Below, one piece after another: positions 2,025-10,759 of a stretch of DNA of 25,991 bases. The notes under the pieces are model-generated. The model had not been told where the DNA came from. It was given only the letters and a program-made list of their open reading frames with translations, and ran no database searches. This DNA is from a virus: positions 1 to 25,991 of IMG/VR virus record IMGVR_UViG_3300018083_000435. The stretch is one strand, 5' to 3'. The position numbers and the translations under genes are program-made. Numbering within the stretch: position 1 is the first letter of the stretch; every line of letters begins with the position of its first letter.

Positions 2025-2309
2025 CTATTTCCTTACTCTTGTCAGAACACGTTTCGGTTTCTTCCCGGTTCCCTGACAAACTTGACAGGGAGAATCAGAG
2101 AATCCCGCTTCAGGTTCATTTCCTGATCCCTTGCAGTGTGAGCAATCGTAACGAGAGTGTCGGACTGAAGAAGGGAAATGAACTGCCTGTTGAGCGCGCC
2201 ATTTAACCCCTGGCAGATTTGTATTCAGAAGACGGAGAACTTCCTGCATCGCATCATCTTCATCCGATGCTGCAACGATGCAATCAACAATCACTATGAA
2301 CTTAGGCAT
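2025..2309 (-). CDS. Small protein with DnaJ-like CxxCxGxG zinc motif
   Basis: This is a 94-aa product. The N-terminal half is a predicted alpha/beta segment (KFIVIVDCIVAASDEDDAMQEVLRLLN). The C-terminal half contains CSHCKGSG (Cys56, Cys59) and CQVCQGTG (Cys75, Cys78), two copies of the DnaJ-type zinc-binding repeat, which together bind one zinc ion. The tail is basic (KKPKRVLTRVRK). Similar truncated zinc repeats occur in small phage proteins; no J-domain is present, so it is not a DnaJ co-chaperone. Its start overlaps the stop of the upstream gene by 8 nt, so the two are probably translated together. Confidence 0.75.
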   Translation of the reverse strand: MPKFIVIVDCIVAASDEDDAMQEVLRLLNTNLPGVKWRAQQAVHFPSSVRHSRYDCSHCKGSGNEPEAGFSDSPCQVCQGTGKKPKRVLTRVRK

Positions 2310-2634
2310 CTTCTGGAATCCTTCTGATATTTTCTACGAGTCTTTTCTGAATCTCTTCGAAAGTTTTCAGGAAGTCTACACCTCCGTGCAGTTCAATGAA
2401 TTCGTTCACGACTTCAAGGGGAACCCAACCGAAAATACTTGAGTCTATTTCTCCGGTGTCGGAATATTCCAGCCAGGATTCAGGAGGCTCCGCTGTGGGA
2501 AATCCCACTTCAACATGAGTATACGGTCCCTCATTATCTCTAGGCGTTGAATAATGAGTTTTACTTGCTTGGACGGAAAGATGAGTTCCATCCTTGCAAT
2601 AGAAACGTGGGCAATGTGACTTGAATTCAAACAT
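2302..2634 (-). CDS. Unknown 110-aa early phage protein
   Basis: The product begins MFEFKSHCPRFYCKDGTHLSVQASKTHYSTPRDNEGPYTHVEVGFPTAEPP and ends in a helical, charged segment. The N-terminal part looks like a conserved small phage protein of unknown function that I have seen in environmental phages. I cannot name the family. Its ATG at 2634 directly abuts the stop of the upstream gene at 2635, and its 3' end overlaps the next gene by 8 nt. It is firmly within the operon and no catalytic motif is visible. Confidence 0.7.
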   Translation of the reverse strand: MFEFKSHCPRFYCKDGTHLSVQASKTHYSTPRDNEGPYTHVEVGFPTAEPPESWLEYSDTGEIDSSIFGWVPLEVVNEFIELHGGVDFLKTFEEIQKRLVENIRRIPEDA

Positions 2635-2847
2635 TTAATCCTCATCTTTCTTCATAGTCCAATCACGGACGAAATCGGTAAACTTCACGTTGGAGGGTTT
2701 AATCTCAAATGTATCCTTCTTCCTGTGAAGTTGGACCTTTCCAACCACTGGACACTTCTTATTGGTGCAGACGAATGTCTCGTAACTGGAATGGAAGTAT
2801 TCGATGTTAACTAGTTTCTCTTCGCATTCCGAGCAGTATTCTCCCAT
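2635..2847 (-). CDS. Small zinc-ribbon-like protein (70 aa)
   Basis: The ATG at 2847 (MGEYCSECEEKL) was chosen over an in-frame TTG at 2862 because GGAAGGA lies 6-7 nt upstream of it and would be inside the longer version. CSEC near the N-terminus and CTNKKC about 25 residues later form a four-cysteine ribbon. The rest is basic (KVQLHRKKDTFEIKPSNVKF) followed by an acidic end (KKDED). The product may contact nucleic acid or protein through the zinc ribbon; the function is unknown. It sits 1 nt from the upstream micro-gene and abuts the downstream gene. Confidence 0.65.
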   Translation of the reverse strand: MGEYCSECEEKLVNIEYFHSSYETFVCTNKKCPVVGKVQLHRKKDTFEIKPSNVKFTDFVRDWTMKKDED

Positions 2848-2848
2848 C

Positions 2849-2965
2849 CTATTTCCTTCCAACGTATTCTGACCAGAAGAACAAGGTCATTCCAAAGACA
2901 AAGACGAGTCCTCCCAACATGAGGACGAAGCGAATGTTTTCAGGGCTGAAAAGTTGATCAATCAT
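2849..2965 (-). CDS. 38-aa single-span membrane peptide
   Basis: This small gene encodes MIDQLFSPENIRFVLMLGGL then VFVFGMTLFFWSEYVGRK. Residues about 13-30 are continuously hydrophobic, enough for one membrane helix, flanked by a short acidic/polar N-terminus and a basic C-terminus (GRK). GGGAG lies 7 nt before the ATG. The ATG directly follows the TAA of the kinase-like gene, and its TAG is 1 nt from the next ATG. This gap-free fit in the operon supports a real gene. Small single-span phage proteins can alter the host membrane, act in lysis control or in superinfection exclusion; the sequence does not choose. Confidence 0.65.
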   Translation of the reverse strand: MIDQLFSPENIRFVLMLGGLVFVFGMTLFFWSEYVGRK

Positions 2966-3343
2966 TTATTTCTCCCAAGATTCCTGCATTCGATCGATAA
3001 CTTCGCCAGGAACATCGTGAATGTTGTCGAAGAGTTGTCCCGTCATTGTGATTTCGGTAATCCTGTAACCGTATTGAATAGCAAGCTGGTAATACGGTTC
3101 GAGTTCCCAACGTTTGACGAAGGTGTTAGCAACTGCGATTTTGCTCATTCCATAGTTCATCGCATGTTGCACATTCTTCTTGCAATATGCGTGAGCATCA
3201 CCAATTAAACTCTTGTCGTATTCGTAACCAGTTCCCTCCTTGTAGAAGAACTGGTCAGCCTCAAATACGATTGTGGAAAGTTCAGCAGCAAGGGTTGACT
3301 TTCCTGAACCGGGTAATCCCCGAATTAAATAGAGTCGTTTCAT
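2966..3343 (-). CDS. P-loop polynucleotide-kinase-like protein (NEDD4BP2-like)
   Basis: This 125-aa protein starts MKRLYLIRGLPGSGKSTLAAEL. GLPGSGKST (residues 9-17) is a Walker A motif that binds the phosphates of ATP. The following ADQFF...GYEYD segment, the VANTFVKRWELEPYYQLAIQYGY block and the VPGEVIDRMQESWEK end match the short 'NEDD4-binding-protein-2-like' branch of AAA_33/PNK-type kinases common in phages. Family knowledge suggests phosphoryl transfer to a nucleic acid 5'-OH or a small molecule; the exact substrate is unknown. It overlaps the previous gene by 4 nt (ATGA) and is the only gene in the operon with a clear enzymatic motif. Confidence 0.88.
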   Translation of the reverse strand: MKRLYLIRGLPGSGKSTLAAELSTIVFEADQFFYKEGTGYEYDKSLIGDAHAYCKKNVQHAMNYGMSKIAVANTFVKRWELEPYYQLAIQYGYRITEITMTGQLFDNIHDVPGEVIDRMQESWEK

Positions 3344-3540
3344 TCCTCAATCTCCTCGTAATGTTCAATTCCGATGAAAATGGGATACCAATGGATACCC
3401 CAAACCTTTTCTATTCGGCCCAGTTCGTAATCCGAATAACGGGAACCGAAATAGAATGTGAGTTTTCCGATGTAAGCAGTTCCGTATTCCCACGAGAAGA
3501 AACAACGGTGTTGCCAGAAGTTCTTAATCTTTCCTGTCAA
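3340..3540 (-). CDS. Unknown aromatic-rich 66-aa protein, TTG start
   Basis: The TTG at 3540 is the chosen start because a perfect GGAGG lies 6 nt upstream and there is no ATG nearby. The product contains NFWQHRCFFSWEYGTAYIGKLTFYFGSRYSDYELGRIEKVWGIHWYPIFIGIEHYEE. It is notably rich in Trp, Tyr and Phe and probably beta-structured, with no zinc motif and no clear membrane helix. It overlaps the kinase-like gene by 4 nt. A 10-bp stem-loop sits just before its ribosome site. I do not recognise a family. Confidence 0.65.
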   Translation of the reverse strand: MTGKIKNFWQHRCFFSWEYGTAYIGKLTFYFGSRYSDYELGRIEKVWGIHWYPIFIGIEHYEEIEE

Positions 3541-3553
3541 GTTAATCCTCCGC

Positions 3554-3583
3554 TTAGTTCCTTCCCTTTCGACAAGGAACTAA
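3554..3583. other. 10-bp perfect stem-loop upstream of a ribosome binding site
   Basis: TTAGTTCCTT (3554-3563) pairs perfectly with AAGGAACTAA (3574-3583) around a 10-nt loop. On the transcribed minus strand it lies between the stop of the gene at 3591 and the GGAGG of the TTG-started gene at 3540, ending about 5 nt before that GGAGG. It may be a processing site or may tune translation of the next gene. There is no U-run, so it is not a terminator. Confidence 0.5.
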
Positions 3584-3590
3584 CGCAAGA

Positions 3591-3764
3591 TTAATTCTCC
3601 GGAAGAATTTCGATTTTGTTCTGAGTGATCTGAAGAACGTTAATCTCAGAACAGTCGTTGAAGATAGCCCCTGTGATTTCCACAATGGCTTCACCGACTG
3701 TAATGGCTTCGTCGTTCTCGACTTCGGCCATTACAGTGAAAGTTAGAAGAATTGTTCTGGGCAC
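3591..3764 (-). CDS. Unknown 57-aa acidic beta-type protein, GTG start
   Basis: The GTG at 3764 (MPRTILLTFTVMAEVENDEA) was chosen because AGGAAAGGA lies just upstream. The longer in-frame version starting at 3824 would overlap the preceding gene by 47 nt. The product alternates strands and acidic turns (TILLTFTVMAEVENDEAITVGEAIVEITGAIFNDCSEINVLQITQ). No known motif is visible. It follows the 61-aa gene by 13 nt in the operon. Confidence 0.55.
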   Translation of the reverse strand: MPRTILLTFTVMAEVENDEAITVGEAIVEITGAIFNDCSEINVLQITQNKIEILPEN

Positions 3765-3777
3765 GAGTTTTCCTTTC

Positions 3778-3963
3778 CTAACCTTTGGAATTGAAAGTTC
3801 CGTCGATATCAATGACAACGACATTTTTGTTGTCGTTTGTCCAGTTGAATTCCTGATAGACCTGAAACGGTCTCAGCATCCTATCAGAGTTAAACGTGTG
3901 AGTGATGATAGGAGCATCATCGTTACACGCGTCCAGAATTTCTTTCAGTTCTTTAACGGTCAT
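3778..3963 (-). CDS. Unknown 61-aa protein, MTVKEL-type phage family
   Basis: A strong AGGAGG is placed 5 nt before the ATG. The N-terminus MTVKELKEILDACNDDAPIITH matches a pattern seen in many small phage proteins ('MTV.EL...L...D.DA.V'), whose role is not known. The C-terminal part (NKNVVVIDIDGTFNSK) is probably a beta-hairpin. It is cotranscribed, 8 nt after the stop of the Cys-rich micro-gene at 3972. Confidence 0.65.
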   Translation of the reverse strand: MTVKELKEILDACNDDAPIITHTFNSDRMLRPFQVYQEFNWTNDNKNVVVIDIDGTFNSKG

Positions 3964-3971
3964 TATTCCTC

Positions 3972-4136
3972 CTAGAGACAGTAAGGCTCAGAATCTTTGC
4001 AAACGCCCGGATTCTTTTCGTGGCAGTCCGAGTCCGTTGTGCAGGGGACTATCCTTTCTACCTTTTGGTTAAAGTAGACGGAGAGACTGAGATAGAGCAA
4101 GGCAGTAAGGAGAAGGAGAGAGAAAACGAGTTTCAT
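3972..4136 (-). CDS. 54-aa exported or membrane-anchored Cys-rich peptide
   Basis: The product is a short positively charged start (MK), a hydrophobic stretch over residues 3-21 (LVFSLLLLTALLYLSLSVY), then a polar tail with Cys32, Cys38, Cys46 and Cys53. This looks like a signal peptide or signal anchor followed by a small domain with two possible disulfides outside the cytoplasm. The ATG overlaps the preceding stop in an ATGA junction, with AAGGA upstream (GAAGGAAAAGAA). Its tail resembles small cysteine-knot-like modules, but length and spacing do not identify one. Confidence 0.65.
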   Translation of the reverse strand: MKLVFSLLLLTALLYLSLSVYFNQKVERIVPCTTDSDCHEKNPGVCKDSEPYCL

Positions 4137-4324
4137 TTCTTTTCCTTCTTCACGTCGTTAATGAAGTCGATGGAGCGCCAGTAAAGTTGGTCGTAGTTGT
4201 AAGGTGGTTCCCCACGTTCACGCGCGACTCTGTTGCAATTCCAGATGTAATCTGTTGCTTCGTCAGCAGTGTCGAAAGCAAAGACGGGATTCTTCTCCAA
4301 GAAAACGATGTAAACGTATCTCAC
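4133..4324 (-). CDS. Unknown 63-aa early phage protein, GTG start
   Basis: The GTG at 4324 overlaps the TGA of the upstream gene (GTGA junction) and is preceded by AAGGAAG. The product RYVYIVFLEKNPVFAFDTADEATDYIWNCNRVARERGEPPYNYDQLYWRSIDF combines a beta-strand with a helix starting at DTADEA. It resembles small phage proteins of unknown function that convey a 'VFAFDT..EA' pattern. The end is basic (NDVKKEKK). Confidence 0.65.
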   Translation of the reverse strand: MRYVYIVFLEKNPVFAFDTADEATDYIWNCNRVARERGEPPYNYDQLYWRSIDFINDVKKEKK

Positions 4325-5314: not shown

Positions 5315-5558
5315 TGGAAACCTCAGAATTGTTGGTGAAAATCGGCAAAACGGCAGATTCCGTTTCCCGAATGTGAGTGTCGTGAACGATGTCGAGTGCA
5401 AGTAGCGGGCCAGTATTTTTTAGCTTACCCCAACAAATAAATGCCTCCGTGCCATTGTGGCCGTCGTATTGCATACCGGCCGCACGCACGGCGCTGGCAT
5501 ACGCCTTGCATTCTTTGTTGAGCCTTGCGATTTTACCTGCCCGTCGTCGAATAAACAC
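5307..5558 (-). CDS. Unknown 83-aa protein, first gene of the cassette, GTG start
   Basis: The GTG at 5558 has AGGAGG 5 nt upstream, a near-ideal ribosome site. The N-terminus is strongly basic (MFIRRRAGKIARLNKECKAY), followed by AYASAVRAAGMQYDGHNGTEAFICWGKL and LLALDIVHDTHIRETESA. It overlaps the next gene by 8 nt, so the two are probably coupled. Its leader begins about 37 nt downstream of a sigma-54-like element (5606-5622). Composition is GC-rich compared with the early operon. I do not recognise it. Confidence 0.68.
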   Translation of the reverse strand: MFIRRRAGKIARLNKECKAYASAVRAAGMQYDGHNGTEAFICWGKLKNTGPLLALDIVHDTHIRETESAVLPIFTNNSEVSND

Positions 5559-5605
5559 ACGTCCCTCCTAGTCTTAGTGGCGAACCGTCAGCCAACCTGA
5601 TAGAA

Positions 5606-5622
5606 AGCATGGGCTGTGCCAA
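5606..5622 (-). promoter_or_regulatory. Sigma-54-like promoter element for the two-gene cassette
   Basis: On the minus strand the sequence is TTGGCAC-AGCCC-ATGCT. The RpoN consensus is TTGGCAC-N5-TTGCW, with the key GG and GC doublets 10 nt apart, as here; only one position differs. The expected start near 5595 gives a 37-nt leader to the GTG at 5558. Recognition by sigma-54 is an inference. Confidence 0.5.
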
Positions 5623-5734
5623 CAAATGCCAGGCTGCACCACTACATATGGTATGAGTCAACTACGCTCAACACTATATAGAGTGGATGGTCCGGCACTC
5701 AGGTCAATTTCTTGTCTCGATCGGCCAACATATT

Positions 5735-5769
5735 AGCCTGGCTTTAAGTCCTTTGTTTTCAACAACTTA
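5735..5769 (+). repeat. Upstream repeat element, copy 1
   Basis: This copy contains AGCCTGGCT, then TT, AAGTCCTTT, four variable bases, and TCAACAACTTA. The TAAGTCCTT and AACAACTTA ends are themselves an imperfect inverted repeat. The element ends 36 nt before the sigma-54-like site at 5806. Copy 2 (5949-5981) stands in the same relation to the site at 6017. A related AGGCT-containing fragment (TGCCAGGCT) is at 5627-5635. The arrangement fits an activator-binding site. Confidence 0.55.
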
Positions 5770-5805
5770 GCCGTGAGTCTAATACACTCAGGGCAAGATG
5801 TTAGC

Positions 5806-5822
5806 TTGGCACGAATTATGCT
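5806..5822 (+). promoter_or_regulatory. Sigma-54-like element, plus strand
   Basis: TTGGCAC-GAATT-ATGCT matches the -24/-12 consensus except for one base and keeps the GG-N10-GC spacing. It is preceded by upstream repeat copy 1. No open frame of credible quality follows for 700 bp on the plus strand, so any transcript would be a non-coding or long-leader RNA. Confidence 0.42.
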
Positions 5823-5850
5823 AATGCAAGGCGCGCGCCAAATCACCCAA

Positions 5851-5868
5851 TTAAAACAGGCGTTTGAA
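5851..5868. promoter_or_regulatory. Operator-like palindrome, copy 1
   Basis: TTAAAACAGGCGTTTGAA differs at only two of 18 positions from the perfect palindrome at 5890-5907. It lies 39 bp upstream of it, close to four helical turns, so a protein could occupy both on nearly the same face. Confidence 0.55.
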
Positions 5869-5889
5869 ATCATAAACCATGCCAACTAA

Positions 5890-5907
5890 TTCAAACAGGT
5901 GTTTGAA
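5890..5907. promoter_or_regulatory. Operator-like perfect palindrome, copy 2
   Basis: TTCAAACAGGTGTTTGAA has perfect 8-bp arms around GG. The form, and the tandem copy 39 bp away, are typical of binding sites for dimeric helix-turn-helix repressors such as the TetR type. It ends 22 nt before the sigma-54-like element at 5930. No candidate repressor gene is adjacent within the window, unless the zinc-finger gene at 6147 plays that role. Confidence 0.65.
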
Positions 5908-5929
5908 ACGAACATAGGGTGAACGCGCG

Positions 5930-5946
5930 TTGGCACAACAATTGTA
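5930..5946 (+). promoter_or_regulatory. Weak sigma-54-like element, plus strand
   Basis: TTGGCAC-AACAA-TTGTA keeps the -24 part exactly but has GT instead of the usual GC at -12. It stands directly downstream of the tandem palindromes and directly upstream of repeat copy 2. It may be a decayed promoter. Confidence 0.3.
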
Positions 5947-5948
5947 TA

Positions 5949-5981
5949 AGCCAGGCTAAGTCCTTTAGAATCAACAACTTA
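5949..5981 (+). repeat. Upstream repeat element, copy 2
   Basis: AGCCAGGCT, AAGTCCTTT, four variable bases, TCAACAACTTA: the same blocks as copy 1 at 5735-5769, two bases shorter. It ends 35 nt before the element at 6017. Copies 1 and 2 are 212 bp apart and their associated sigma-54-like sites 211 bp apart, so a whole module appears duplicated. Confidence 0.6.
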
Positions 5982-6005
5982 CAGCACCCCTACCAGCGAT
6001 CATTT

Positions 6006-6123
6006 TGGGTCCCATGTTGGCACGATTTTTGCTGGCTCCTCCTCACTCGTCGGGTTCATTTTTTCTGGGTCCCCTTTTTATTTGGGTCCCCGCTCGTTAC
6101 ACTCGCGGATAAAGTTGGGTCCC
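6006..6123 (+). repeat. Four TGGGTCCC direct repeats
   Basis: TGGGTCCC starts at 6006, 6066, 6083 and 6116. GGGTCCC is nearly self-complementary, so neighbouring copies (for example 6067-6073 with 6084-6090) could also pair. The spacing is irregular (60, 17, 33), so this is not an iteron array in the strict sense. The copies lie between the last sigma-54-like site and the stop of the minus-strand zinc-finger gene and could be protein-binding sites. Confidence 0.5.
6017..6033 (+). promoter_or_regulatory. Consensus sigma-54-like promoter, plus strand
   Basis: TTGGCAC-GATTT-TTGCT is a full match to the RpoN -24/-12 consensus with correct GG-N10-GC spacing. Upstream repeat copy 2 lies 35 nt away. 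Transcription from about 6045 would run antisense through the gene at 6147-6326 and towards the late operon at 6610. Confidence 0.55.
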
Positions 6124-6146
6124 ATCTCCTCGCTACGCTCGGAGTT

Positions 6147-6326
6147 TTATTTCTCCTCCTCGGAAAAGGCACGTTCAAAATCTTTCTCCTTAATCCGAGG
6201 ATTCCTTTTCATCCAGCTGTTAACCTGGCATCTACTGCTATGATACTTCTTTAACGAATTGTTCGTCGTGAACTCTTTACCGCATCCTTCGCACTTCTTC
6301 GTTTCCGGTGTTATCAATTTAGACAT
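6147..6326 (-). CDS. 59-aa zinc-finger protein, possible regulator
   Basis: The start at 6326 (MSKLITPETKKCEGCGKEFT) has AAGGA 9 nt upstream; a longer in-frame GTG version lacks a ribosome site. CEGCGKEF...YHSSRC is a C-x2-CGK-x-F...YxSxxC zinc finger, known from many small phage and bacterial proteins. The flanks are Lys-rich with an acidic C-terminus (FERAFSEEEK). It has its own sigma-70 promoter (6416-6445) with a palindromic repeat inside it. A small zinc-finger gene with an operator-bearing promoter, divergent to the late operon, could be an autoregulated switch protein, but that is inference. Confidence 0.7.
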   Translation of the reverse strand: MSKLITPETKKCEGCGKEFTTNNSLKKYHSSRCQVNSWMKRNPRIKEKDFERAFSEEEK

Positions 6327-6356
6327 TTTTTTGCTTCCTTGTCGGGTATTATTCTC

Positions 6357-6368
6357 CCATTGCAATGG
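6357..6368. promoter_or_regulatory. Operator-like palindrome CCATTGCAATGG
   Basis: This is a perfect 12-bp palindrome in the leader of the zinc-finger gene. Ten of its bases (ATTGCAATGG) recur at 6427-6436, inside the -35/-10 spacer of the same promoter, 68 bp away. The pair looks like a repressor site plus auxiliary site. Confidence 0.55.
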
Positions 6369-6415
6369 TTCCTTTTCGAGCACGGCCTGAGACTCGTTTC
6401 GGTCCTTTCTCGTTC

Positions 6416-6445
6416 ATTGTAGCACAATTGCAATGGCTCGGTCAA
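6416..6445 (-). promoter_or_regulatory. Sigma-70-type promoter of the zinc-finger gene
   Basis: On the minus strand TTGACC (6445-6440), an 18-bp spacer and TACAAT (6421-6416) give 5 of 6 at both boxes. The spacer holds ATTGCAATGG (6427-6436), a copy of the palindrome at 6357. The start near 6409 leaves a leader of about 83 nt before the ATG at 6326. Confidence 0.7.
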
Positions 6446-6554: not shown

Positions 6555-6609
6555 GCAAATATCGGGAAAATACTACCCTGAGTGCCCGAGACTCAACTAA
6601 CAAAATCTG

Positions 6610-7269
6610 ATGAATGTTCTTGTAGGGTGTGAGCATTCTGGAATAATTCGGGAAGCCTTTAAATCAAGGGGTCATACTGTCTACTCGTGTGATTTACTTC
6701 CCTCAGTTATTCCCTCAGAGTTTCATATTCAAGATGATATTCTAAAAGTTATTAAAAATCCTCCAATTAAATTCGATTTATTCATCGCACATCCTCCTTG
6801 CACTTATCTCAGCGTTGCCGGATCAGGCCACAGGACGCGCGCTAGGGATAAAAAGACGGAGGAAGCGATAGAATTCTTCAAGAAACTTTACTATTCCACC
6901 CAGTTTCGCCACATTTGCATGGAGAATCCGGTAGGATTCATTAACAAGTTTGTTCCACATCACCAGATAGTTCACCCCTTTTACTTCGCTAAGCCGGGAA
7001 GTGGGGAAAACGTGATGAAACAAACCTGCCTATGGCTCCGTAATCTCCCACTGCTCAAGTATGAGACTAATCCTAGACCAGCCCCGCGAGGAATCTTCAA
7101 GTCGGGGGCTAAAAAAGGTCAGTCCTACAACTGGTGTGACGGAGTATTCGGTCCCAAGCGCGCGATGGTGAGATCAAAAACTTTTCATGGGATCGCTAAT
7201 GCGATGGCTGAACAATGGTCGAATGCTCTGGAATGGAATGCGACGGATGTTTGGGGAAAAGCTATCTAA
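6610..7269 (+). CDS. DNA C5-cytosine methyltransferase-like protein
   Basis: This 219-aa protein begins MNVLVGCEHSGIIREAFKSRGH, a motif-I-like SAM-binding start. It has HPPCTYLS (PPC at 62-64, Cys64 the expected nucleophile of C5 methylases) and MENP (ENP at 105-107, the motif-VI Glu region). At 219 aa it is much shorter than typical C5 methylases (over 300 aa) and a separate target-recognition domain is not obvious. It matches the short phage type that carries HPPCTYLS..G and ENP. The likely role is modification of phage DNA against restriction. No Shine-Dalgarno is visible before the ATG. It is the first gene after the late promoter, 18 nt before the terminase-type gene. Confidence 0.8.
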   Translation: MNVLVGCEHSGIIREAFKSRGHTVYSCDLLPSVIPSEFHIQDDILKVIKNPPIKFDLFIAHPPCTYLSVAGSGHRTRARDKKTEEAIEFFKKLYYSTQFRHICMENPVGFINKFVPHHQIVHPFYFAKPGSGENVMKQTCLWLRNLPLLKYETNPRPAPRGIFKSGAKKGQSYNWCDGVFGPKRAMVRSKTFHGIANAMAEQWSNALEWNATDVWGKAI

Positions 7270-7287: not shown

Positions 7288-7857
7288 ATGAAACTATTAC
7301 TTGATGATGACGACGTTATCGAAGTTCCTCTTATCCGTCGCCCCGTGCGCGAGGACGCGCCCGAAATACGAGAGGCTGAAATAGTTGTCCCTCCCAAGCT
7401 GGGAAGGCCGGGGGATAAGAAAGTTGACTCTCTGACGAAGGAACTGATAGCAGTTCAGTCAGCTGTAATGGGAGTCCCCCAAACTCAGCTAGCTAGAATT
7501 CACGGGACGAGTCAGGCAGAAGTCTCGATTAATAAGAATGGGAACGATAGGACGAACCGGGCGCAAAGGAAAGAGAACGAGAAGATTAGGGAAGTCATTA
7601 ATCATGCAAAGTATCGGATAGCAGACCGGGCTACTGCTAAGTTGATGACAAGTTTAGACTTATTCGATCCTTCTCTACTTGATCAAAAAGACTTGCCTAA
7701 CGCAGCTAAGTCAATGGCTGGAATTTTAGAAAAGGTAACGCAGGATTTCGAAGGCCAAGAACGCGCGAGCGGGCCAACCTTCCATATTTATGCGCCCCGT
7801 TCCCGTTCGGAAGAATCCTTCCAAGTTATCGACGTTAGGGATAAAGAGACGGACTAG
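7288..7857 (+). CDS. Probable small terminase subunit
   Basis: This 189-aa product has an acidic N-terminus (MKLLLDDDDVIEV), a Pro/Arg linker, then a helix-turn-helix at about 61-82 (MGVPQTQLARIHGTSQAEVS). After it comes a long charged helical region (RAQRKENEKIREVINHAKYRIADRATAKLM). DNA recognition through an N-terminal helix-turn-helix plus a helical oligomerisation region is the usual small-terminase design, and it precedes the large terminase. Three small virion-type genes lie between the two subunits, which is unusual. A transcription regulator is the main alternative. Confidence 0.6.
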   Translation: MKLLLDDDDVIEVPLIRRPVREDAPEIREAEIVVPPKLGRPGDKKVDSLTKELIAVQSAVMGVPQTQLARIHGTSQAEVSINKNGNDRTNRAQRKENEKIREVINHAKYRIADRATAKLMTSLDLFDPSLLDQKDLPNAAKSMAGILEKVTQDFEGQERASGPTFHIYAPRSRSEESFQVIDVRDKETD

Positions 7858-9106: not shown

Positions 9107-10759
9107 ATGGCGAAGGAAGCGGAGCTTCTTGAGAAGGATGCAGGCTGGCGTCCTAATGTTAAGCAAGAGCCGTTCTTAGCCCTACCCTTAACTATCAAGG
9201 AGGCATTCTATGGAGGGGGCGCGGGAAGTGGAAAATCAGACGTTCTTCTGTATTATCCACTTGTTTGGAAATGGCATGAACACCCGAGATTCAAGCAAGT
9301 GTTTATGCGTCGAACATTTCCGGAGCTTAGGAATGAAATTGTCCCGCGCTCAAGAGAGATTTATCGAAGATTTGGAGCTTCATTCAATAAATCCGATATG
9401 GCTTGGACATTCCCTAGGCCAGATCAGGCAGGTGGAACAGGATTAGGAAATCAGGGGGCGATAATCTATCTTGGTCATTGTGAACATGAGGATGACGTTC
9501 ACAAGTATGACTCGATGGAAATTAATCTCTTCTCCCCAGACGAGCTGACTTCCTTCACTCGATGGATCTATGAATACCTAGCCTTTCAACGTGTTAGAAC
9601 CTCAGATAAATCCCTTCCTGCCATCGTTAGGGCAGCCGGGATGCCAGGAAATATCGGACATGGCTGGGTAAAGAAACGGTTTATCGATCCCGCGCCAAGA
9701 GGAAGTAAGATTATTATCGGTAAAGGAGGAATAAAGAGAATCTTCATCCACGCAACACAGGCAGATAATCCTCATATCGACCCGGAATACAAGAATTCCC
9801 TTTCGGCATTACCTGAGGCTGAAAAGAATGCGAAGCTATACGGGAGTTTCGACGCCTATCTAGGCCAAGTATTCGAAGAATTCAGGGATAGAAGATACCC
9901 GGATGAGCCAGAGAATGCACTGCACGTAATCGAACCGTTCACCATTCCTGATTGGTGGCCCCGCCTCATCATAGGTGACTGGGGATTCGCAGCGATGACC
10001 TACGTGTTATTCGCAGCTATCTCCCCAACCAAGCGAGTTTACGTTTACAGGGAACTAGCTTGGAGGAGGACGAAGATTGAGGAGTGGGCACCCGAAGTTA
10101 AGTATTACGTCGAGAAAGAGAAGCCCCAAAGAATAGTTTTCTGTAAGTCGGTCGCGCAGGATAGGGGACAGGAGCATACGATTCATCAACAGATTATCGA
10201 TGCCCTTGAGTGTCAGGTTGATACGGCTAATCACTCGGCAGGAAGTCGGATTGCGGGGAAACAACTACTTCATGAATACCTTAGATTCAATCAAAAGGTT
10301 ATTCCTGAGAAGGATCGAGTCGAATTCGATGAGCCGTATTCTCAATGGATCTTAAGGAATAAAGGCGAATCAGAATACAAGGCTTATCTCTCGCTATTCG
10401 AAGAAGAGGAGAAAGAGAGTAATCTTCCAAAACTTCAAATATTTAAAGAATGCGTATTACTAGTCACAGCAATTAAATCCTGCGTCTACGCTAAGCCTAA
10501 GGACGGGATTCAAGCTGAGGACGTTGCAGAATTCGAAGATGATGATCCGTATGATACCGTCCGTTATCTAGTGGACGCAGCAGATCAATACTTCGAGAAT
10601 GCAACAGTTACTCTAGACATTATCGATAAGCGAGAAGCAGTAATTCAAAACTTTCAGAAACATCAGGATATGACAACTTTCTATATGCAGATGAAGAAGA
10701 TTGAAAGTGATGTGAGACCCTTCGGAGTTTCGAGATATCATCGTCGGAGAGTAGGATGA
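9107..10759 (+). CDS. terL: Large terminase subunit (packaging ATPase-nuclease)
   Basis: This 550-aa protein fits the usual TerL size. GGGAGSGKS (36-44) is the Walker A loop. VFMRRTFPELRNEI follows, typical of terminases. INLFSPDELTSF (near 140-150) is the Walker B/catalytic Glu region. The C-terminal nuclease begins at GDWGFA (Asp291) and has DDPYDTVRYLVDA (Asp480/Asp483), the usual metal-binding acids. It cuts concatemeric DNA and drives it into the prohead through the portal. Its stop overlaps the next start (ATGA-type). No clear Shine-Dalgarno precedes the ATG. Confidence 0.95.
   Translation: MAKEAELLEKDAGWRPNVKQEPFLALPLTIKEAFYGGGAGSGKSDVLLYYPLVWKWHEHPRFKQVFMRRTFPELRNEIVPRSREIYRRFGASFNKSDMAWTFPRPDQAGGTGLGNQGAIIYLGHCEHEDDVHKYDSMEINLFSPDELTSFTRWIYEYLAFQRVRTSDKSLPAIVRAAGMPGNIGHGWVKKRFIDPAPRGSKIIIGKGGIKRIFIHATQADNPHIDPEYKNSLSALPEAEKNAKLYGSFDAYLGQVFEEFRDRRYPDEPENALHVIEPFTIPDWWPRLIIGDWGFAAMTYVLFAAISPTKRVYVYRELAWRRTKIEEWAPEVKYYVEKEKPQRIVFCKSVAQDRGQEHTIHQQIIDALECQVDTANHSAGSRIAGKQLLHEYLRFNQKVIPEKDRVEFDEPYSQWILRNKGESEYKAYLSLFEEEEKESNLPKLQIFKECVLLVTAIKSCVYAKPKDGIQAEDVAEFEDDDPYDTVRYLVDAADQYFENATVTLDIIDKREAVIQNFQKHQDMTTFYMQMKKIESDVRPFGVSRYHRRRVG

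Follow-up and report, generated by a model that had tools for sequence, protein, structure and literature searches.

The window analysed here is the whole of a 26 kb IMG/VR virus record (IMGVR_UViG_3300018083_000435, 25,991 nucleotides) that carries phage packaging and head genes together with a cluster of elements resembling the promoters of the sigma factor sigma-54 (RpoN). PHROGs matches were obtained for its methyltransferase, its terminase and its major head protein, which bears out the phage origin proposed in the original prediction, a reading made from the sequence alone. Around the gap at 5560-6140, small genes run leftward, and methyltransferase, terminase and structural genes run rightward. 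The sigma-54-type sites are situated between a small open reading frame (ORF) at 6383-6147 and a leftward gene with its start at 5558, and this region is indeed gene-free apart from doubtful short ORFs. The gap holds six such sites, given here with their counterparts in the relative L003, which is about 80% identical to the window across the late genes:

5606-5622, minus strand: sigma-54-type site TTGGCACAGCCCATGCT, about 50 bp ahead of the leftward GTG at 5558
5806-5822, plus strand: sigma-54-type site TTGGCACGAATTATGCT, left half of a face-to-face pair with a 2 bp gap
5825-5841, minus strand: sigma-54-type site TTGGCGCGCGCCTTGCA, right half of the pair with 5806; the aligned L003 site is a full match
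5869-5885, minus strand: weak sigma-54-type site TTGGCATGGTTTATGAT; the aligned L003 site (7507, minus strand) is strong and paired
5930-5946, plus strand: sigma-54-type site TTGGCACAACAATTGTA with an imperfect −12 box; L003 counterpart TTGGCATAACACTTGCT
6017-6033, plus strand: sigma-54-type site TTGGCACGATTTTTGCT, matching the consensus in full and unchanged in L003

The sites show the features of a sigma-54 element: the cores TGGCAY and TGC, and a distance of 10 bases from GG to GC. Sites were scored on both strands with a weight matrix made by hand from the textbook consensus; a consensus of TGGCAC-N5-7-TTGCT is also given in PMC12316311. Five sites in 5560-6140 reached at least 12 bits, compared with 0.08 per dinucleotide shuffle and a maximum of one in 1000 shuffles, and seven reached at least 8 bits, compared with 0.57 per shuffle. 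The word TTGGCAC occurs six times in the whole window (2.44 in shuffles), and four of these copies lie inside about 430 bp. The enrichment that had been claimed thus holds over shuffled sequence. All four TTGGCAC words of the predicted cluster are real and were placed on the correct strands, and the copy at 6017 is exact against TTGGCAC-N5-TTGC; however, the other three copies each differ from it by one base, where only two had been said to, and the count of four elements was too low, having missed the minus-strand sites at 5841-5825 and 5885-5869 (weak).

Arrays in related and unrelated phages

The homologous gap of L003 contains seven sites, at 7301 (minus), 7422 (plus), 7441 (minus), 7488 (plus), 7507 (minus), 7568 (plus) and 7656 (plus). 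In the alignment of the two sequences the 6017 site is kept exactly, others are weakened or strengthened, and a 22-base stretch of L003 without a counterpart in the window supplies one half of an extra pair. On this alignment, site number is better kept than site position. Matches at 5397 (minus) and 5494 (plus) were treated as chance, as they lie inside coding sequence and have no L003 site at the aligned places. No sigma-54 site cluster was found in the more distant terminase relatives L005-L014, in the sequence examined. Assignment of a host through the terminase was dropped, the nearest isolates being about 27-32% identical.

Face-to-face 17-mers with 2 bp between them occur at 5806/5825 in the window and at 7422/7441 and 7488/7507 in L003. 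When a loose pair pattern (0-30 bp between the halves) was searched for in viral contigs, at least 120 stretches matched, and 80 loci were examined. In these loci the spacing from TGC to GCA was 3-8 bases in 93 of 114 pairs, with about 22 expected if spacings were even. An RNA hairpin or terminator repeat was rejected because the spacers are complementary in just 2 of the 114 pairs. Tandem pair arrays were present in L057, L077, L102, L237 and L248, and a back-to-back version of the pair was found 24 times in viral contigs. A strict pair pattern matched at least 120 stretches in viral contigs, whereas bacterial genomes totalling 257 Gb yielded 13, of which 12 came from metagenome-assembled genomes; an even stricter pattern had no match in bacterial genomes, and a control with wrong spacing (one extra base inside each half) had none in all viral contigs. 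BLAST against plasmids returned no full-length pair, with E-values that are weak for 36-base queries.

Among 28 viral records, which were picked for holding such sites, the single-site pattern gave 2-21 matches per record versus 0-2 for the reversed pattern. The sites fall mostly in one cluster per record, for example six in 118 bp of 46 kb (G027) or 17 of 21 within 4 kb of 353 kb (G015), and the window and other records show such a single cluster within a divergent gap. One asymmetric 17-mer, rigid in its internal spacing, recurs in 98 locus groups that share no 18-mers near the array.

Arrays or pairs are also present in isolated phages, namely the Vibrio phages VCPH, D260 and D419, the Pseudomonas phage SYP and the P. 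putida phage phiPMW; rpoN is present in both Vibrio and Pseudomonas. In D419 (L341), a stretch of about 1.2 kb (2050-3215) annotated as tiny hypothetical genes contains two LexA-type, three DnaA and two exact CRP-type boxes as well as several sigma-54 sites. Escherichia phage nepoznato (L340; host E. coli K-12 MG1655) has 1.67 kb without annotated genes (2625-4299) in which a single sigma-54-type site lies beside one or more Fur-type boxes. Phage T5 itself (AY543070) has no sigma-54 cluster; 16 of its 17 Fur-box-like matches lie in the injection stop signal region (9558-9709) and its repeat copy (121089-121240), and all four of its exact LexA-type boxes lie in the terminal repeats.

Orientation of the sites and host-regulator boxes

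Gene context was taken from crude gene calls filtered by codon usage, so that the following counts are rough. Array-locus sites 20-150 bp from a gene start point towards the gene in 55 cases and away from it in 54, and at 150-400 bp in 210 and 208 cases, respectively. Since each pair adds one site of either kind by construction, unpaired sites were also counted alone. In a control phage, L062, all 12 sites near a start point to the gene, mostly from 41-61 nt before it. This phage (IMGVR_UViG_3300028888_003249) has about 18 sigma-54-type sites, which are dispersed and confined to the gene strand, as though most of its genes had promoters of the sigma-54 type; L063 resembles it more weakly. Of 157 pairs, 89 are located in divergent gaps, compared with 94 divergent gaps among 524 in general. 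In the window, only the 5606 site points to a gene from upstream, and the 6017 site runs antisense into the small ORF.

Boxes for host regulators were counted within 350 bp of pairs and compared with scaled counts from the rest of the intergenic DNA in these loci and with permuted half-sites. The loci had been chosen by the sigma-54 pattern, a choice that biases towards that motif and not towards other boxes. DnaA boxes numbered 32 versus 2, Fur boxes (TGAGAAT-N-ATTCTCA) 7 versus 0.5 and LexA boxes (CTGTAT-N4-ATACAG) 4 versus 0, some copies coming from related phages. NtrC-type boxes (GCACC-N5-GGTGC) were found near arrays in 11 copies from five groups, with 0.06 expected. In L226 (among other places at 2745-2840), extended palindromes around GACGTAAGTCCTTT...CAACGACTTACG stand beside each sigma-54 pair, and once without a pair.

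Other features of the gap

The remaining motifs of the gap, its right-hand border and the promoters ahead of the flanking genes are as follows:

5654-5670: motif A TGAGTCAACTACGCTCA, with more copies at 5774-5790 and 6579-6595
5745-5769: motif B palindrome TAAGTCCTTTGTTTTCAACAACTTA, placed 36 bp ahead of the 5806 site and perhaps bound by an activator or host factor
5851-5868: motif C TTAAAACAGGCGTTTGAA, palindrome-like
5890-5907: motif C palindrome TTCAAACAGGTGTTTGAA
5957-5981: motif B palindrome TAAGTCCTTTAGAATCAACAACTTA, placed 35 bp ahead of the 6017 site, with an exact IHF consensus inside (5969-5981)
6147-6383, minus strand: small ORF with weak HNH/C2H2 zinc-finger similarity, right-hand border of the array
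6416-6445, minus strand: sigma-70-like promoter TTGACC-N18-TACAAT ahead of the leftward zinc-finger/HNH-like ORF, readable in L003
6526-6554, plus strand: near-consensus sigma-70-like promoter TTGACT-N17-TATAAT ahead of the rightward genes, kept in L003

Motif B is 25 bp long, recurs in about 10 groups of array loci, and in most copies, those of unrelated phages included, lies 35-46 bp from the nearest sigma-54 site. The protein binding it may be an activator or another host factor; activator sites of sigma-54-dependent promoters are expected 80-200 bp upstream, and NtrC-type boxes are present in other phages. On its own, motif B was found in 35 stretches of viral contigs, none of which had a sigma-54 site cluster. 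It matched 1 of 398 Pseudomonadota, 2 of 69 Planctomycetota and 1 of 69 Verrucomicrobiota genomes, with no sigma-54 site near these matches; a common host motif was therefore rejected. The motif A copy at 6579-6595 is directly downstream of the sigma-70-like promoter and is kept in L003.

A scan for sigma-70-like promoters was overall not above chance (two found versus 1.7 in shuffles), both being consensus matches, and conservation in L003 is the better argument for these putative promoters. The methyltransferase gene at 6610-7269, which follows the rightward promoter, has no counterpart in L003, in which the next late gene follows directly. Just past the array, GGGTCCC occurs four times within about 120 bp (6007-6123), and twice in L003.

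Discussion

In this study, we describe a gap between divergent phage gene blocks that is densely occupied by sigma-54-type sites. Sigma-54 very probably accounts for the site word, because an asymmetric 17-mer with rigid GG-N10-GC spacing is common to phages that share no sequence there and is accompanied by NtrC-type boxes. The recognition by sigma-54 that the original prediction proposed is thus well supported, also by the empty wrong-spacing control and by the Vibrio and Pseudomonas isolates. Its further claim that the elements are promoters controlling phage genes did not fare as well, in view of the 55:54 orientation, the flanking sigma-70-like promoters and the fact that no site other than 5606 faces a nearby start, even with unpaired sites at 51 towards versus 35 away.

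We favour the reading that the gap is an array binding host sigma-54 holoenzyme (E-sigma-54), acting as a sponge when the phage multiplies or silencing locally, although we hold it as readily false as true. It is preferred to a set of promoters because the sites occur in both orientations and in overlapping pairs, the location is divergent, and the genes appear to have sigma-70-like promoters. Lying between the leftward block of small genes and the late block that runs rightward, the gap would be a host-factor-binding array, with a core of dense E-sigma-54 recognition sites in two orientations, partly as face-to-face pairs, and with palindromes for other regulators interspersed. E-sigma-54 binds DNA of this kind with no transcription start unless an activator ATPase acts. 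As copies of the phage genome multiply, the array would hold host E-sigma-54 and the motif B binder in silent complexes, by which the sigma-54 regulon would be titrated and the divergent region possibly silenced. At most of the sites that it occupies in E. coli, E-sigma-54 is inactive, and a role as decoys has been proposed (PMC4591121). We infer the binder in this phage to be host E-sigma-54, and the benefit to be titration or silencing. The recurrence of the paired arrangement in viral stretches, with so few matches in bacterial genomes, suggests that such arrays serve many phages in binding or titrating a host regulator. Several observations weigh against the array reading. The 5606 site is placed like a real promoter, as had been predicted; motif B at its near-fixed distance looks like an activator site and thereby speaks for real promoters; the two sites of an overlapping pair can probably not be occupied by holoenzyme at the same time, an odd design for a sponge; and the counts for unpaired sites near arrays amount to a weak bias towards genes.

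The last points lead to the possibility that the sites are working sigma-54 promoters, partly bidirectional, from which phage RNA is made when a motif B-bound host activator (NtrC boxes in other phages) is active. The spacing of motif B, the NtrC-type boxes near arrays, the exact IHF consensus at 5969-5981, the 5606 site ahead of its start codon and the promoter-like sites of L062 all agree with it. We nevertheless consider it unlikely, as orientation towards genes is random, genes on both sides are preceded by sigma-70-like promoters, and the 6017 site runs antisense into a small gene; moreover, 14 array-type phage records yielded no activator gene. Genes for sigma-54 itself were not found in these records either, and the window turned up neither an activator of sigma-54 nor the DNA-binding domain of this factor. 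It is also conceivable that the array senses the state of the host, with bound E-sigma-54 or activators repressing phage expression locally or setting its timing, a role that CtrA has in phages of alphaproteobacteria. In many bacteria, genes for motility, pili and stress are under sigma-54 control, and LexA, Fur, CRP and DnaA boxes are nearby in other phages, but the sigma-54 sites of the window do not overlap its sigma-70-like promoters, so direct repression is not obvious and such a sensor seems quite improbable here. Finally, the repeats might be replication-origin iterons or operators of a phage protein that resemble the −24/−12 element by chance, as the original prediction had allowed in its alternative of a phage protein preferring this word. 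One cluster of repeats per genome is origin-like, and DnaA boxes stand beside some arrays; yet the 17-mer recurs in the 98 groups that share no sequence around the array and the spacing control is empty, NtrC boxes co-occur, and Fur and LexA boxes are not parts of origins, which makes this explanation very unlikely. A DnaA-type replication origin was itself rejected, as neither the window nor L003 has a DnaA box.

The closest published case is that of the arrays of CtrA sites that alphaproteobacterial phages carry in divergent gaps, supported by gel shift and reporter assays (PMC9437464). In Brevundimonas phage vB_BsubS-Delta and the PhiCbK-like phages, sites for a host regulator are likewise clustered in a single large gap that separates divergent blocks, next to the terminase end, and are common to unrelated phages (PMC9437464). 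In contrast, CtrA is a response regulator and not a sigma factor, its arrays have no face-to-face pairs of an asymmetric site, and binding and regulation were tested there, while here the sites are read from sequence. Compared with sigma-54 promoters that have upstream activator sites, the array shares the TGGCAY-N5-TTGC core, the 10 bases from GG to GC and palindromes at a near-fixed distance, but it differs in its two orientations, its overlapping pairs and the lack of a consistent position before genes. Sites for a host regulator similarly let phage DNA follow the state of the host in Bacillus phage phi29 (Spo0A boxes) and in phages with LexA boxes (both cited in PMC9437464), although those sites are tied to promoters and to another regulator. 

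The E. coli locus datA, which titrates DnaA, is a nucleic-acid decoy that also has many sites in non-coding DNA and no promoter polarity; it differs in being a chromosomal locus with a demonstrated function, whereas titration by the phage array is a proposal. The injection stop signal region of T5 and the terminal regions of T5-like phages are, like the gap, gene-free and rich in repeats; T5-like phages of Vibrio and Pseudomonas carry sigma-54 sites in such terminal DNA, and T5 carries Fur, LexA and DnaA boxes, but the window is not T5-like. A search for sigma-54 arrays in phages yielded no report in the open-access literature, a coverage outside which most subscription papers fall. We raise, tentatively and with some doubt, the broader idea that in many unrelated phages a gene-free region, often in the first-entering or early DNA, might bind several host regulators at once (sigma-54 polymerase, NtrC, LexA, Fur, DnaA, CRP) and, by titrating them, reprogram the cell by means of DNA only, with no phage protein involved.

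The array element is easily found by its pattern, is nearly specific to viruses and is present in isolates from Pseudomonas putida and Vibrio; therefore, the sponge, sensor and promoter models are directly testable. If the array reading is true, phages would meet the sigma-54 system, with its roles in nitrogen, motility, pili and the phage-shock response, through DNA arrays that are invisible to gene-centred annotation, and the few known cases of host-regulator sites in phages (CtrA, Spo0A, LexA) would be extended to a sigma-factor system.
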